Virus record (IMG/VR): IMGVR_UViG_3300048591_000650
Location: 1-37,945 of that record
Reading direction: 5' to 3' (one strand)
Source of the DNA: a virus
DNA length: 37,945 nucleotides
In this document: in pieces, positions 1 to 37,241 of the stretch
Layout: each line of letters starts with the position of its first letter
Numbering within the stretch: position 1 is the stretch's first letter
The notes under the pieces: generated by a model
What the model was told of the DNA's origin: nothing
Databases searched by the model: none
The model's input: the letters and a program-made list of their open reading frames with translations, nothing else
Translations under genes and position numbers: made by a program

Positions 1-237
1 ATCCACGCGCTCGCAAGGTCGGCGCGGCGGCGATGGCCAGACGACGAGCGGAGTATCCGGACGCATATCGAGGACCTCGGGCCGCTCACCCAGCTGCGCA
101 AGGTGTCCGATGCCGCGATCGCGCTGTTCGATTCCATGAACCGGGTGTGGCTCGACGCCTACACCGACCTGCCGCCCTTCAAGCAGCGCGACGTGGACGC
201 GTCCCTCCTTACGGAGTGGAAGAGGTTGGCGGCTTGA
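1..237 (+). CDS. C-terminal part of an unidentified phage protein (5' end outside window)
   Basis: An open frame enters from the window edge and ends at the TGA at 235-237, giving 78 residues that finish WKRLAA. I do not recognise the family. The visible part is mixed helical and charged, with no metal or nucleotide motif. Its stop codon overlaps the TTG start of the RuvC-like gene (TTGA at 234-237). That is the same coupling style seen in the leftward operon at the other end of the window and suggests the two are cotranscribed replication or recombination genes. The product cannot be named without the missing upstream part. Confidence 0.6.
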   Translation: MHALARSARRRWPDDERSIRTHIEDLGPLTQLRKVSDAAIALFDSMNRVWLDAYTDLPPFKQRDVDASLLTEWKRLAA

Positions 238-689
238 AGTGTGTTATCGGCATTGACCCCGGGCAAACCGGGGGGATCGCCGCGATCATGGGAGACCAGG
301 TCGCAGTCTGGCCCATGCCGCTCGCGGGCAAGGACATCGACCTTGGCGAAGTCGCGCGCATCCTGCGTTCGTGCGTTCCCGATGTCGTCGTCATCGAGCG
401 CGTCCACGCGATGCCGAAGCAGGGCGTCTCTTCGACCTTCAAGTTCGGTGAGGGATTCGGCGGCATCAAGGGTGTCGCGGCGGCATTAGAACTCCGCGTC
501 GAACTCGTCACTCCCCAGGCATGGCAGAAGGTCATCCTCTCGGGCACCACAAGGGACAAGGACGCGGCCGTCGCTTACGTCCGCCGGGCGTATCCATCGG
601 TCGAGCTGGTCCGCAAGGGTTGCCGCATCCCGCATTCGGGTATTGCCGACGCGACATGCATCGCGGCCTACGGTTGGAGGTGCCTTTAG
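234..689 (+). CDS. RuvC-like Holliday junction resolvase
   Basis: A 151-residue RNase H-fold nuclease of the phage RuvC type, expected to cut branched DNA during replication, recombination or packaging. The first strand carries GIDPGQTGG with Asp8. Glu55 sits in VVVIERVHAMP, followed by the glycine-rich FKFGEGFGG segment typical of RuvC. The last acidic site is Asp139 in SGIADA. The length is close to usual for the family. An open frame continues upstream to 33, but nothing before LKCVIG resembles the family. I place the start at TTG 234, which overlaps the previous stop as TTGA. Neighbours are replication genes. Confidence 0.85.
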   Translation: MKCVIGIDPGQTGGIAAIMGDQVAVWPMPLAGKDIDLGEVARILRSCVPDVVVIERVHAMPKQGVSSTFKFGEGFGGIKGVAAALELRVELVTPQAWQKVILSGTTRDKDAAVAYVRRAYPSVELVRKGCRIPHSGIADATCIAAYGWRCL

Positions 690-911
690 GTGGCTACCCG
701 TAAAAAGCGCGGTGCGTTTGGAGCACCCGTGCCAAGCTCCACGATTTCGTTTGCCGATGTATCGAGGGCCAACTCACATGTCGCCCTCATGGAGGAACTT
801 CACGGAACAGATTCACCCCAGCACCGAGAGGCGCTAGCCGAGCGCCAAGCAACCATCGACCGATACCGACAACAAGCCAAGGATGGTGGTGATGGTGCAA
901 GCGCGGCCTGA
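690..911 (+). CDS. Small hypothetical protein between resolvase and helicase
   Basis: This 73-residue protein starts with GTG immediately after the RuvC-like stop (TAG at 687-689, GTG at 690), so it is probably translationally coupled. The N-terminus is basic (ATRKKRGAFG), the middle is serine-rich, and the C-terminal half is a predicted amphipathic helix rich in Glu, Arg and Gln. No family is recognised. The 3' end overlaps the helicase reading frame by about 20 bases. Its position suggests an accessory role in replication, but nothing in the sequence proves it. Confidence 0.6.
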   Translation: MATRKKRGAFGAPVPSSTISFADVSRANSHVALMEELHGTDSPQHREALAERQATIDRYRQQAKDGGDGASAA

Positions 912-2406
912 GGCTGACATCGTCAATCTTGAGGCCGAGATGGCCACTCTTGGCTCCGCCATCATCGGCAAGCCCGAGCACCTGGCATGGTTCTGCTCGA
1001 ACGTGCCCGCGAAGGCGTTCGGATTTCCGGCCCACGCCGAGATCGCGAAGGTGATCCATGGCCTTCAACACGACGGGACGGCGGTCGAGTTGCTGACGGT
1101 GAAGAACGCGCTGCTTCGGCAAGGCGGGCTTGCCCTGGTCGGCGGCGAAGACTATCTTATCCAAGTTGCCGAGTCGGTCCCGAGCGCGGCGAACGTCGAG
1201 CACTACGGCGCCATCGTGCTCGAGGACCATGGGAAGCGCGTTCTGCGCCGCCGACTGGTCAGGGCGCTACAAGAGCTGGACGTGAGTCCACTCTCGAAGA
1301 TGCTCGAGGTAACCCCGAGGCTCGCCCACGGCTTACGCAATCCGGCAAAGGTCGACGGGCCGGGCCTCTCCACGGTCGTCAGCTTCAACGGCGATTTTAA
1401 GCCGGTCGACGTGGATTACCTGATCGAGCCGTACTTCCCCAAAGGTAAGAGCGTCCTGGTCGACGCGGACGGTGGCACGGGCAAGACGTCTTGGCTGTTG
1501 TCGGTGGCCGCCGGCCTATCTCGGGGCAGCTCCGCCTTCGGTACGGTCCACGGTCCTCCTGTGCGCACTCTCCTGCTGTATCGCGACGCCGACCGTGCCG
1601 AGGAATACGAGACGATCTACCGCGCAAACGGCGGGGTGCCTGGCTGGATCTCATACAGCAACGACGGCCGCATCCTCACGGCAGAGTACGCGGAGGAGAT
1701 CATCCAGACGGTGCGTCGCGGAGGCTTCGGCTTCGTGATCTTCGACCCGTTCTTCTACTTTTTGCCCCCTACGACGAACACGAACGACGCGATCCAGGCG
1801 CTGCCGGTCTGCCAGCTGGTCAACCATATCGCCGCCGAGACGGGCGCGGTGTGCGCCGTCGTGCGCCACACGAGCAAGGGGAGCGTCGACAAACAGGCGT
1901 CCGACCTCGGAATGGGTTCAGTTCAGTTCCGCAACTCCTTCCGTGGCCAAATGGTCCTTCGGTGGCACCCGCAGAGCAAAGAGGATCCTCACTACCGGGG
2001 TGTGGTCGTCGCCACAGACGAGAAGGGTTCGATCCTCGTTCCACGTGGCGACACCTTCCAGTTCCGCCGTGTAGACAGAGAGGTCCAATACATCGAATCG
2101 GCCGGAGATAACCCGTTCCATAAGCGCCGGGAGCAGGGCGACGGAACCAGGGGCCCGACCGCCGATCGACGCCGTGAGTGCGAGTCATGGCTCAAGGCTC
2201 AGCTGGGCACGAATGCGCTGCTGGCAAGGGACATCATCCCGGCGGGTATCGACGCCGGTTTCAGCAGGAACACGATTTACCGCGCGAAGGACGCGCTGAA
2301 GCTTGTCGTCTCCACTCGGGGTTCGTACCAGACTTGGGCGCTCCCCGAATACGACCCATATGCCGACACAGACGGCCATGACCACGTGTACAGGGGGGGC
2401 GACTAG
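892..2406 (+). CDS. Replicative helicase / initiator: DnaB-type N domain plus RecA-like ATPase
   Basis: About 504 residues. The N-terminal ~110 residues match the helical DnaB N-domain pattern (EAEMATLGSAII near the start, then GGEDYLIQ and SVPSAANVEHY). A RecA/RepA-type ATPase core follows, with Walker A GGTGKTS at about 194-200, Walker B FVIFDPF near 284-290 and a sensor-like VVRHTSKG. The last ~90 residues look like a winged-helix or HTH segment (AGFSRNTIYRAKDAL), as in RepA/RepC-type initiators. Residues count from ATG 892. ATG 883 is in frame, but the AAGG at 879-882 abuts it and is better spaced for 892. The repeat array directly downstream makes an origin-binding or loading role likely (inference). 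Confidence 0.8.
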   Translation: MVQARPEADIVNLEAEMATLGSAIIGKPEHLAWFCSNVPAKAFGFPAHAEIAKVIHGLQHDGTAVELLTVKNALLRQGGLALVGGEDYLIQVAESVPSAANVEHYGAIVLEDHGKRVLRRRLVRALQELDVSPLSKMLEVTPRLAHGLRNPAKVDGPGLSTVVSFNGDFKPVDVDYLIEPYFPKGKSVLVDADGGTGKTSWLLSVAAGLSRGSSAFGTVHGPPVRTLLLYRDADRAEEYETIYRANGGVPGWISYSNDGRILTAEYAEEIIQTVRRGGFGFVIFDPFFYFLPPTTNTNDAIQALPVCQLVNHIAAETGAVCAVVRHTSKGSVDKQASDLGMGSVQFRNSFRGQMVLRWHPQSKEDPHYRGVVVATDEKGSILVPRGDTFQFRRVDREVQYIESAGDNPFHKRREQGDGTRGPTADRRRECESWLKAQLGTNALLARDIIPAGIDAGFSRNTIYRAKDALKLVVSTRGSYQTWALPEYDPYADTDGHDHVYRGGD

Positions 2407-2703
2407 AAACCTGGGACAAGAAAAACTTGGGACGAGGTTCAAATGAGTCTAGTCCCAAGTTTTTCGAAAACTTGGGAACTTGGGACGGAAACTTGGGACG
2501 AGGTTCAAAAATGCTCGTCCCAGGTTTCCCTGTCTCATAGAAACTTGGGAACTTGGGAAACTTGGGACGAGACTCAAATCCCGAGCCACAACTACATACA
2601 GAACCGCCTTCCTTCCTTCTTTAGGGAAGGGGGGGAAGGGGGGGATATTGTCCAGGGTCAGGCCTTAGGGGGGTTGTCCCAAGTTTCTCCGAAAACCTGG
2701 GAC
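2407..2703 (+). repeat. Iteron-like array, candidate replication origin
   Basis: An 11-mer AAACYTGGGAC is repeated in this non-coding block. Full forward copies lie at 2407-2417, 2423-2433, 2489-2499, 2558-2568 and 2693-2703. Variant forward copies lie at 2468-2478, 2476-2486, 2541-2551 and 2549-2559. Inverted copies lie at 2452-2462, 2517-2527 and 2676-2686. Forward and inverted copies form dyads: an 11-bp-arm hairpin with a 3-nt loop at 2454-2478, an imperfect dyad at 2492-2524, and another at 2676-2703. Three copies continue as CGAGRYTCAAA. The position just after the helicase-initiator gene fits an iteron origin. No gene is needed to explain the block. Confidence 0.75.
2624..2644 (+). other. 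G-tract (possible G-quadruplex) inside the origin-like block
   Basis: G3-AA-G7-AA-G7 on the + strand, preceded by a CCTTCCTTCCTTCTTT pyrimidine run, with another G6 at 2668-2673. The two G7 runs can supply the four G-triplets of an intramolecular quadruplex. The segment separates two clusters of the 11-mer repeat, so it may help open the duplex or block a polymerase (inference). Confidence 0.4.
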
Positions 2704-2722: not shown

Positions 2723-3409
2723 ATGATCGAGACGATGGAGACCGAGCAAGGAATGAGCGAGAACCAGAACCCCATGAACGAAACGATGCCTAAGAAGGGA
2801 GCGCCCACCGGGAACGCCAACGCCCGATTCTGGGGCCGGAAGGAAGTCGAGACCGCGCGGCTGCTGATCGACGTCTGGGCGACGCAGGTGTGGCACTCGA
2901 TGCGGATCCTCGTCCCGGTCCACGAGATCGCCGTGCGCCGGATCCCGGTCCTCGACGAGCGCAGTGGACGCCAAGTCGGTGAGCGCCTGGCGTTCGAGAC
3001 GGTGAGCGCGGATACGGGGAAGGCATACGGCCTCGGCGGCGATCATCGGCCGGTGGCGATCGACGAGCGCACGAGTGGCGACATCGTGATCGAGCACCGA
3101 AGCATCTCGCCGTTCAGGGACCGGGGCCTCGCCTCGCCGCTCGAGATCAAGTGCATGGTGGCGGAGCGCCTGACGCGATGCCACGCATGGACGCAGGCGC
3201 TGCTGCTCCACATCTACCCGCGATCGGGGCCGTATCACGATCCTGGGCGCACGATCCACGAGTTCCGGCCCGAGGAGCTGGTGCGAGAACTGCTGATCGG
3301 GTACGAGGGAGAGCGGCCTGGGCGGCACGTGCATATGGCCCTCGGACAAATGCACAGGGAGGCCGTTCGGCGGGTGATTCCGCTTGGTCGCGATGTGATT
3401 CGAGGGTGA
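2723..3409 (+). CDS. Hypothetical protein downstream of the putative origin
   Basis: 228 residues of unknown family. The N-terminus is acidic and Met-rich and leads to KKGAPTGNANARFWG, a Gly/Asn-rich basic linker of a kind common near the start of phage DNA-binding proteins such as terminase small subunits and HTH proteins. The remainder is mixed alpha/beta with many Arg and His. ATG 2723 follows a weak purine stretch (GAAAAGAAG); in-frame ATGs at 2732 and 2753 are alternatives. The gene follows the repeat array, so its expression could be tied to origin occupancy. No catalytic motif is visible. Confidence 0.65.
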   Translation: MIETMETEQGMSENQNPMNETMPKKGAPTGNANARFWGRKEVETARLLIDVWATQVWHSMRILVPVHEIAVRRIPVLDERSGRQVGERLAFETVSADTGKAYGLGGDHRPVAIDERTSGDIVIEHRSISPFRDRGLASPLEIKCMVAERLTRCHAWTQALLLHIYPRSGPYHDPGRTIHEFRPEELVRELLIGYEGERPGRHVHMALGQMHREAVRRVIPLGRDVIRG

Positions 3410-7637: not shown

Positions 7638-9021
7638 CTTAGGTGCTGAGGAGGCATCGACGGGAGACGTCGCGAGCTTCGAGGCTGCTCCCGCTTGGTT
7701 CCACGATGGACAGCGTGAAGCATGGGCATGCGACGCAACCGACATTGTAGTCGTCGCTGGAACACAGGGCGGGAAGACTGCCATCCAAGCCCCTTGGCTA
7801 CTGAGAGAGATCGCGCGCTGCGCACCCGCGATCAGGCAGCTAGGGAACGGCAAGTTCATCTATGCGGGACCGACACTCACACTGCTTGAGCAGCAAGCGA
7901 TTCCGTCCTTCGTTGAGCTCTTCGAAGAGACCTACCGTCTCGGGAAGCTGATTCGCGGAAACAAGCCGAAGTTTGTCTTCAGCCGTGATGGCCTACAGCG
8001 AGTGCTCGGGTTCTCGCATTGCCCTGTTACCGTCAACTTCGCGTACACCAACGACTCGAGCAACCTGGAGTCAATGACAGCGCTGGCCGGCGTTTGGGAT
8101 GAGGCGGGCCAGAAGGAGAACAAGCTCGCATCCTTCAGGGCTTTCAATCGCCGGTTGAAGGTGGCCAGATCGATGGGCTATGGGCGCCGACTGTGGGGCA
8201 CCACGCCTTACGAGTGGGGATGGTTCAAGACCAACGTCGTCGACGTCGCCGAGCGCCGTGATGGCGGTTATCGGATGTTCAACTTCCCGAGTTGGATGAA
8301 CCCGATCGTCAGCGAAGAGGAGTGCCGAAAGGACCTCGATCAAGGGATGCCGCTCTGGGAGTGGCAGATGATGTATCTCGGGCTCTACACGAAGCCCGCC
8401 GGCATCATCTATGACAGCTTCGATTCGGACCGCATGCTGCTCACGCGGTTCCCGATCCCAGATCACTGGCCACGCTGGATCGGCCTCGACTTTGGCTTGC
8501 GGAACACGGCGGCTGTCTTCGTTGCTGAGGAGCTGAACGCGGAGGGCAAGCCGACTGGTCGATTGATTCGCTACCGGACTTACAAACCTGGACATAACCG
8601 GAGCGTGGAGGACCATGTTCGCGAGCTCTTACGGGATGAACCAAGGCTCCCGATAGCTGTTGGCGGATCGCACACAGAGAGTGATGTTCGTGCCGCATAT
8701 CGCCTCGCCGGCTTGCCGGTAGAGGAGCCGCCAGTTTCTGATGTGGAGGCCGGGATCCTGTGCGTCTATGGCGAGCATGCGCGCGGAGAGACTCTAGTCT
8801 TCAACGATCTCGCGGACTATCTCGACGAGAAACTCAGCTACAGCCGCGAGCTCGGCGATGATGGCAAGCCGACCGAGAAGATTCGCGACAAGGCGAGTTA
8901 CCACTTGATGGATGCAGAGCGCTACCTGATGTCGAAGCTGCGCCCGATTGACCCGAGTTGGGTCCACAACAAGACTGCGATGGACTTCTTGATGTCCCGA
9001 GTTCGACCGGAGAATTCATGA
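7576..9021 (+). CDS. Terminase large subunit (packaging ATPase-nuclease)
   Basis: 481 residues. The ATPase domain has Walker A GTQGGKT at 62-68 and Walker B GVWDEAG with Asp175-Glu176. WGTTPYEWGW is the coupling-motif region. The RNase H-like nuclease domain starts with WIGLDFGLRNTA (Asp305) and ends with a late acidic site in HLMDAERY (Asp446). It binds the portal and pumps and cuts DNA. Start ATG 7576 lies inside the small-subunit gene; the long overlap suggests translational coupling. The stop overlaps the portal start (ATGA, 9018-9021). Confidence 0.92.
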   Translation: MSAPVSARSLFDSCLLRLIDSLGAEEASTGDVASFEAAPAWFHDGQREAWACDATDIVVVAGTQGGKTAIQAPWLLREIARCAPAIRQLGNGKFIYAGPTLTLLEQQAIPSFVELFEETYRLGKLIRGNKPKFVFSRDGLQRVLGFSHCPVTVNFAYTNDSSNLESMTALAGVWDEAGQKENKLASFRAFNRRLKVARSMGYGRRLWGTTPYEWGWFKTNVVDVAERRDGGYRMFNFPSWMNPIVSEEECRKDLDQGMPLWEWQMMYLGLYTKPAGIIYDSFDSDRMLLTRFPIPDHWPRWIGLDFGLRNTAAVFVAEELNAEGKPTGRLIRYRTYKPGHNRSVEDHVRELLRDEPRLPIAVGGSHTESDVRAAYRLAGLPVEEPPVSDVEAGILCVYGEHARGETLVFNDLADYLDEKLSYSRELGDDGKPTEKIRDKASYHLMDAERYLMSKLRPIDPSWVHNKTAMDFLMSRVRPENS

Positions 9022-30982: not shown

Positions 30983-31262
30983 TTAACTCGGGTTTGAGCC
31001 TTCGAGGAGAGTTCGCCCGTATCTAGAGATAGAGCTTTGCTCCTTGGGTCGCTGCCCAAGTTTCGAGGTTCCCCCGTTTGCCGCGGGGGGCCTCACACCA
31101 ATTGACGATGGGGCACCTCCGATCGCCGCAGGATGTAGAAATGCGGGATAAGTGGCGTTTGAGGTAATTTGCGCGCCCACTTCTTCACCCAGATCCCGTC
31201 TACTCTCTTGTAACATTGGTGATCTTCGCTCCGAAGGCTCCGGGTTGCATGTCTGTCTCACT

Positions 31263-36990: not shown

Positions 36991-37241
36991 GATTGCACCT
37001 CGCTAAAGACGACCTTCGCGAAATCTGCAAGACAAGCCTCAAGCGAGTCGAAAGGGCCTCCTCGCAGATCGTGGTGAGGGACGTACCCCATCCATTCAAA
37101 ACCAACTTCTGCGTTGTCTTCCTTGACCATGTCATTGTCAGCATTGCGCCAAGTGATCTGCCCTTCTTGGCGAACACCGAGCATGATTTCCCATCCCTTG
37201 TAGTCTTCAAAGTCCCAAGATTCTTTGAGGGTCAGTTTCAT
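36987..37241 (-). CDS. Small hypothetical protein
   Basis: 84 residues from ATG 37241 (ATGA overlap with the MBL gene). Aromatic-rich (ESWDFEDYKGWEIMLGVRQ; VGFEWMGYVPHHDLRGGPF), with an acidic middle and a helical end. A longer upstream frame is Arg-rich and is not used. Less GC-rich than average. Family unknown. Confidence 0.6.
   Translation of the reverse strand: MKLTLKESWDFEDYKGWEIMLGVRQEGQITWRNADNDMVKEDNAEVGFEWMGYVPHHDLRGGPFDSLEACLADFAKVVFSEVQS

Follow-up and report, generated by a model that had tools for sequence, protein, structure and literature searches.

An iteron array directly behind a DnaB_N and AAA_25 helicase gene as a probable phage replication origin, with that helicase as its proposed initiator

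Introduction

DnaB-type helicases normally require a separate initiator plus a loader before they can act at an origin. A block of short repeats in a viral genome raises the question of whether a helicase of DnaB-like build can do without both. The window, as we call the genome here, comprises the complete virus record (37,945 bases), and the block (2407-2703) lies immediately 3' of a helicase gene (883-2406). A preliminary description of the locus, made from the letters, had proposed a self-contained origin whose initiator is also the helicase. Having followed up that proposal, we consider it probable (about 0.68) that 2407-2703 is the replication origin of the phage and that the adjoining helicase is its initiator as well as the replicative helicase. 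If a helicase with DnaB_N and AAA_25 domains reads its own origin, three jobs would be joined in one protein, as in the Rep proteins of SaPIs, on a RecA-fold chassis. The AAA_25 family has been described as having no known function (PMC8965321).

The helicase gene and its neighbours

The genes and domains on which the argument depends are the following.

234-689, plus strand: gene for a RuvC-like Holliday junction resolvase (phrog_1770, E 1.1e-29), an early replication/recombination context
883-2406, plus strand: gene for the proposed initiator-helicase, 507 aa, with DnaB_N and AAA_25; the protein is 83% identical to that of the relative L009
925-1224, plus strand: DnaB-type N-terminal domain, residues 15-114 (PF00772, E 4.9e-16)
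1390-1884, plus strand: AAA_25 RecA-fold ATPase, residues 170-334 (PF13481, E 1.9e-15)
2158-2370, plus strand: predicted C-terminal winged helix, residues 426-496, the candidate iteron reader (AlphaFold2, HHHEE)
2723-3409, plus strand: next gene, 228 aa, without a Pfam, PHROGs or NCBIfam match

The protein had been described as a DnaB-N/RecA-type helicase, and matches to DnaB_N (residues 15-114) and AAA_25 (residues 170-334) bear this out. The AAA_25 match scores 57.4 bits against a gathering score of 27, and the Walker A motif of this ATPase, GGTGKT, lies at about 1471-1488. When the helicase was compared with solved DnaB chains by phmmer, only the N-terminal domain was matched (best E 1.5e-11). 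The DnaB equivalog TIGR00665 (NCBIfam) gave 43.9 bits where its cut-off is 385, with matches covering about residues 15-132. The helicase stands far under the DnaB equivalog cut-offs and is therefore not an ordinary DnaB. Pfam recognised DnaB_N and AAA_25 in it and no primase domain, and a PHROGs polymerase/primase family overlaps it in the ATPase part only. Of the window proteins that were scanned, none was recognised as a polymerase or a primase.

The C-terminal end had been read as a putative winged helix. AlphaFold2, run with a two-sequence alignment, modelled the whole helicase poorly outside residues 426-496, and these residues came out as helix-helix-helix-strand-strand with a block pLDDT of about 66-83. 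Their structural neighbours are nearly all winged-helix domains, the best being the winged helix of Pyrococcus Rpa2 (Z 8.9). Z values of 7-9 over 60-70 residues support a winged-helix fold for the predicted model, and not a function. Given just the C-terminus, AlphaFold2 returned three helices but not a clear wing, and Foldseek with the poor full-length model returned just weak matches to DnaB N-domains.

Copies and layout of the iteron array

The array is made up of copies of AAACYTGGGAC, laid out as follows.

2407-2568, both strands: iteron set 1, with 11-bp copies found by motif search at 2407 (+), 2423 (+), 2452 (-), 2468 (+), 2476 (+), 2489 (+), 2517 (-), 2541 (+) and 2558 (+), and a weak one read from the sequence at 2549 (+)
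2423-2443, plus strand: extended 21-bp copy AAACTTGGGACGAGGTTCAAA, repeated at 2489-2509, with a variant at 2558-2578 and an inverted copy at 2444-2462
2569-2675: spacer separating set 1 from set 2, of 56% G+C, containing G tracts and the block GGGGGGGATATTGTCCAGGG, which L009 also has
2676-2703, both strands: iteron set 2, an inverted pair at 2676-2686 (-) and 2693-2703 (+)

The helicase stop codon occupies 2404-2406 and the first copy begins at 2407, so that the array follows the gene immediately, as had been claimed. Searching both strands of the window for AAACYTGGGAC, we found 11 copies with at most one mismatch in 2407-2703, eight of them exact; eight lie on the plus strand and three on the minus strand. 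A twelfth, weaker copy with two mismatches (GAACTTGGGAA, 2549-2559) was read from the sequence. The preliminary description had given at least twelve copies in both orientations, which agrees with this count when the weak copy is included. Across the approximately 37 kb of genome outside the array there is a single near-match, at 37212-37222, with one mismatch. Hence the motif is not frequent in the genome. The same search of dinucleotide shuffles gave a mean of 0.69 and a largest value of 4, as against 12 places in the window. A second, distant contact near attP had also been suggested. We find no support for it: CCCAAGTTT at 31055 is a lone 9-mer at chance level, with no 11-mer within one mismatch.

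The finer features that had been pointed out are real. Overlapping copies step by 8-9 bp (starts 2468/2476 and 2541/2549/2558), and three plus-strand copies continue into a 21-bp extended form, CGAGGTTCAAA at 2423-2443 and 2489-2509 and CGAGACTCAAA at 2558-2578. The stretch 2444-2462 is an inverted copy that matches the extended copy 2558-2578 at 95%. Several pairs of copies had been said to make hairpins, and as single-stranded DNA the block folds far better than its shuffles (-64.1 vs -41.7 +/- 4.0 kcal/mol, z -5.6), because the array holds inverted copies. A 107-bp spacer divides the array into the sets 2407-2568 and 2676-2703, a feature that the preliminary description had not pointed out. 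The block has 50% G+C and the genome 63%; the lowest 60-bp stretch, at 40%, lies inside iteron set 1.

GC skew had been proposed as a check on where replication starts. The cumulative skew has its minimum near the window start, which fits an origin there, yet it also tracks a switch in gene direction at about 31 kb, and the check is to that extent confounded.

Conservation in a close relative

Among the viral contigs searched, a single close relative was found, L009, a record of 37,965 bases whose helicase is 83% identical. Loss of the motif from a relative with the same helicase would have spoken against the proposal; L009 carries nine iteron copies right behind the helicase gene, in the same place as in the window. 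Inside the copies 107 of 115 aligned bases are identical (93%), and outside them 122 of 171 (71%). Copies have also turned over, with two window copies absent from L009 and one L009 copy absent from the window. The two arrays differ by single-base and by 9-10-base insertions or deletions, and it is therefore unlikely that this stretch is coding. The conservation of the array rests on one comparison, because one close relative exists in the searched collection.

The C-terminal 93 residues of the helicase are 61% identical between the two phages, and the putative recognition stretch GIDAGFS[RK]NTIYRAK is retained in both. The counterpart of the 228-aa gene sits after the array in L009 too. Within the spacer, G tracts followed by GATATTGTCCAGGG are conserved (window about 2620-2660, L009 about 7736-7775).

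Arrays behind other helicase genes

A motif-first search with TTGGGA-type triplets gave more than 119 viral matches, many of them fixed host palindromes or coding repeats, the latter with periods divisible by three. Such matches mean that a motif-first search overstates the case, and hence we sampled protein-first. AAA_25 genes were taken from bacterial genomes and chosen blind to their flanks. A locus was scored as having an array if some 8-mer, both strands counted, reached four or more occurrences in the interval that opens 10 bp ahead of the stop codon and closes 340 bp past it, and an intragenic stretch of the same length served as control.

Among the first 54 usable AAA_25 loci, 18 have an array, each above all 100 shuffles; the intragenic control of this set gave 0 of 54. 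AAA_25 genes from two further phyla gave 6 of 17, one at p 0.02. Pooled, 24 of 71 AAA_25 loci stand against the 0 of 54 of the intragenic control (Fisher 2.3e-7). At seven more of the first 54 loci, which were not shuffled, the array spans the 3' end of the gene. Two thirds of the AAA_25 genes are without an array in the downstream test. RadA/DnaB-like paralogues, used as a further control, have an array in 1 of 17 cases, and the AAA_25 excess over these paralogues reaches only p 0.033. Their sole match, L275, looks like a short AAA_25 protein that ends in an HTH, and this control is therefore slightly contaminated. DUF927 genes, the family of SaPIbov1 Rep, were the positive yardstick and gave arrays in 9 of 14, with 0 of 14 in the control stretch. 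AAA_25 genes thus behave like DUF927, a family known for its use of adjoining iterons, at a lower rate. The DUF3987 sample from one phylum held two genes, neither reaching four copies, which is too few to judge.

The array words vary widely among AAA_25 elements, and a GGGAA/GGGAC core like that of the window is present in 6 of 18. Intergenic TTGGGA-type arrays were seen behind or at the end of genes for DUF927 + PriCT_2 (L010), Prim-Pol + DUF3987 (L083), RepB_primase + PriCT_1 (L109) and AAA_25 (L097). Homology matches in named phages included Wolbachia phage WO, with a TTGGCA-type array behind the helicase (L253), Rhizobium and Sinorhizobium phages with a TTTGGAATT array (L254, L255) and Moraxella phage Mcat10 with a CGCAGACA array (L256). 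Some relatives have no obvious array behind the helicase, among them Escherichia phage BUCT618, where the protein alignment covers residues 2-332.

Some loci deserve mention in their own right. Candidate iteron arrays lie within the 3' end of the AAA_25 gene, and hence are also coding, in L321, L327, L329, L273 and L287. At L390, twelve GGTGGACA copies are found about 66-295 bp past the stop of a DUF927 gene. These copies come as four triplets with a spacing of about 10 bp, and their orientation flips after the sixth copy, a striking symmetry for a candidate origin.

The core GTTCCCAAG...CTTGGGAAC marks host palindromes that are dispersed over L162 (5640-5930), L178 (5090-5200), L170 (3180-3260) and other genome contigs. 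Genomes of Desulfatirhabdium and Planctomycetota have many of these palindromes, which also occur in Methylobacter and Prevotella. Their appearance is that of REP-type elements, and the core is all that they share with the phage iterons.

Which part of the helicase would read the word

Across 12 homologues of one AAA_25 protein the word varies and the position of the array is fixed. Covariation between the motif and the winged helix in these 12 gave no signal (Spearman 0.18, p 0.13). The 15-residue stretch that correlates best in the 12 homologues (max-corrected p 0.035) falls after the ATPase and ahead of the winged helix, and the peak corresponds to residues 571-594 of L356, a short variable segment. 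The protein of L381 has an N-terminus 97% identical to that of L356, and its C-terminus and CCGGAAC word are closest to those of L358. This apparent natural swap is only suggestive, because neighbouring DNA would travel along with the gene.

One bacterial genome, G120, holds six copies of one AAA_25 element gene (L356, L372, L377, L379, L380 and L381), 79-100% identical and with an array at each. The most diverged copy has a different word.

Proposed mechanism and alternative explanations

The proposed origin would work in three steps. The C-terminal part of the helicase, most likely its winged helix, would recognise AAACYTGGGAC in both orientations. The two clusters of inverted and direct copies would then assemble two outward-facing helicase rings around the spacer (2569-2675), a step drawn from the layout of the copies and from the SaPI/PICI model. 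These rings would melt the duplex and move away from each other, with the polymerase and probably the primase coming from the host. An origin with a self-loading initiator-helicase would be the most economical account of the locus. The earlier proposal of a self-contained origin gains from the retention of the array in L009 and from the frequency of arrays behind AAA_25 and DUF927 genes; its assignment of the reader drew no support from the covariation analysis, which did not point to the winged helix. Counting against the origin reading are the spacer, which unlike that of PICI origins is not A+T-rich, and the AAA_25 genes and relatives that have no array.

The block might be an origin that is read by another phage protein, for example the 228-aa product (2723-3409), or by a host factor that recruits the helicase. 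The gene for that product lies directly 3' of the array here and in L009 and has no family match, and the covariation analysis did not trace specificity to the winged helix. Against this, the constant partner of the arrays in the surveyed AAA_25 and DUF927 loci is the 3' end of the helicase gene, and SaPI Rep and Cch2 themselves bind such repeats (PMC7581432); we regard another reader as unlikely. The array might instead be a group of operators by which the helicase or a regulator governs transcription of the genes that follow, but we consider this improbable. Its place between two co-directional genes would suit an operator, and winged helices are known mostly from repressors, but a scan of 2200-2900 for the sigma-70 consensus found no promoter-like site, about 12 copies, spread in two sets across 300 bp, exceed typical operators, and arrays recur behind helicase genes of several families.

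Short-repeat arrays mark centromeres too, and a large terminase gene lies about 5 kb downstream, so a partition (centromere-like) or packaging (pac) site must be weighed as well. The phage has an integrase and would thus not need plasmid-like partition, none of the scanned proteins was recognised as a partition protein, and pac sites usually go with the small subunit of the terminase rather than with a helicase. Such a role is quite improbable. There is also a very small chance that REP-like palindromes of host type entered the phage genome and are what we see as the copies. Several bacterial genomes do have dispersed palindromes of the same core, such as GTTCCCAAGCnCCnGCTTGGGAACG, but these host elements have a different fixed unit, and the copies in the window are not regular palindromes, occur in one place only and keep a conserved position.

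Significance

The initiator-helicase reading may extend well beyond this phage. The chances seem about even that AAA_25 RecA-fold helicases, the present one with its DnaB-type N-terminal domain among them, are a large, largely unrecognised class of self-loading initiators in phages and mobile elements, each reading a private word that is repeated in both orientations where its own gene ends or shortly after. A DnaB-like helicase would in that case start replication without a separate initiator or loader, and origins would become orthogonal to one another through a joint change of word and reader. The layout of PICI origins has been described as present in no other known replicon (PMC6092414); our survey suggests that a similar layout is common. 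This would offer a simple route to predicting origins in uncultured phages and integrated elements, and it provides many candidate orthogonal helicase-origin pairs.

Comparison with known systems

The closest likeness is to the origins of SaPIs and PICIs. SaPI Rep helicases recognise, through their C-terminal domain, iterons directly downstream of their own gene, and in the SaPI model two Rep hexamers apparently sit on these iterons (PMC7581432). Plasmids can be replicated by PICI pri-rep-ori segments, and PICI origins have two iteron sets that flank an A+T-rich stretch (PMC6092414). Shared with these systems (SaPIbov1 Rep, DUF927; SaPI5 Rep, Primase_Cterm) are the position of the proposed origin, right behind the 3' end of the helicase gene, the use of short repeats and their arrangement in two iteron sets. 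The C-terminal DNA-recognition domain of those helicases would have its counterpart here in the predicted winged helix. The motor differs, being a RecA-fold AAA_25 domain with a DnaB-type N-terminus in place of DUF927 or Primase_Cterm (D5). There is no fused primase, and the genome is that of a tailed phage with head, portal and terminase genes. The spacer, at 56% G+C, is not A+T-rich as in PICIs, and we therefore do not file the locus as a PICI-type origin, only as one that would work like one.

Cch2 of SCCmec also binds short repeats directly downstream of its gene (PMC7581432), as is proposed here. It is a D5-type helicase with three 5-nt direct repeats, whereas the window has about a dozen 11-mers in both orientations. 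Kazlauskas and colleagues predicted that the C-terminal winged helices of mobile-element primase-helicases recognise origins, and the motors of those proteins include RepA- and DnaB-type domains (PMC5862659). The PrimQH/PolpTN2-like primases among them resemble our protein in this predicted winged helix, and their helicase module is interchangeable (RepA, DnaB, MCM, DUF927, DUF3987) (PMC5862659). Unlike them, the window protein has no recognised (archaeo-eukaryotic) primase domain, and here candidate DNA sites are identified.

Iteron plasmids of the RepA/Pi/TrfA type share the initiator-binding repeats, but their initiator is a non-helicase that recruits host DnaB (PMC4980987), while the initiator proposed here is the helicase. 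The ORF904 system of pRN1 has its origin just 3' of a replication gene with a winged-helix end; unlike the window, it uses one 100-nt stem-loop without iterons and a prim-pol with an SF3 helicase (PMC4234260). The origin layout was thus known before from small phage-satellite islands and is met here with a different helicase. Set against the open-access literature, the additions are the occurrence in this setting of a helicase that has a DnaB-type N-terminus but lacks a recognised primase, and candidate DNA sites for many AAA_25 elements.
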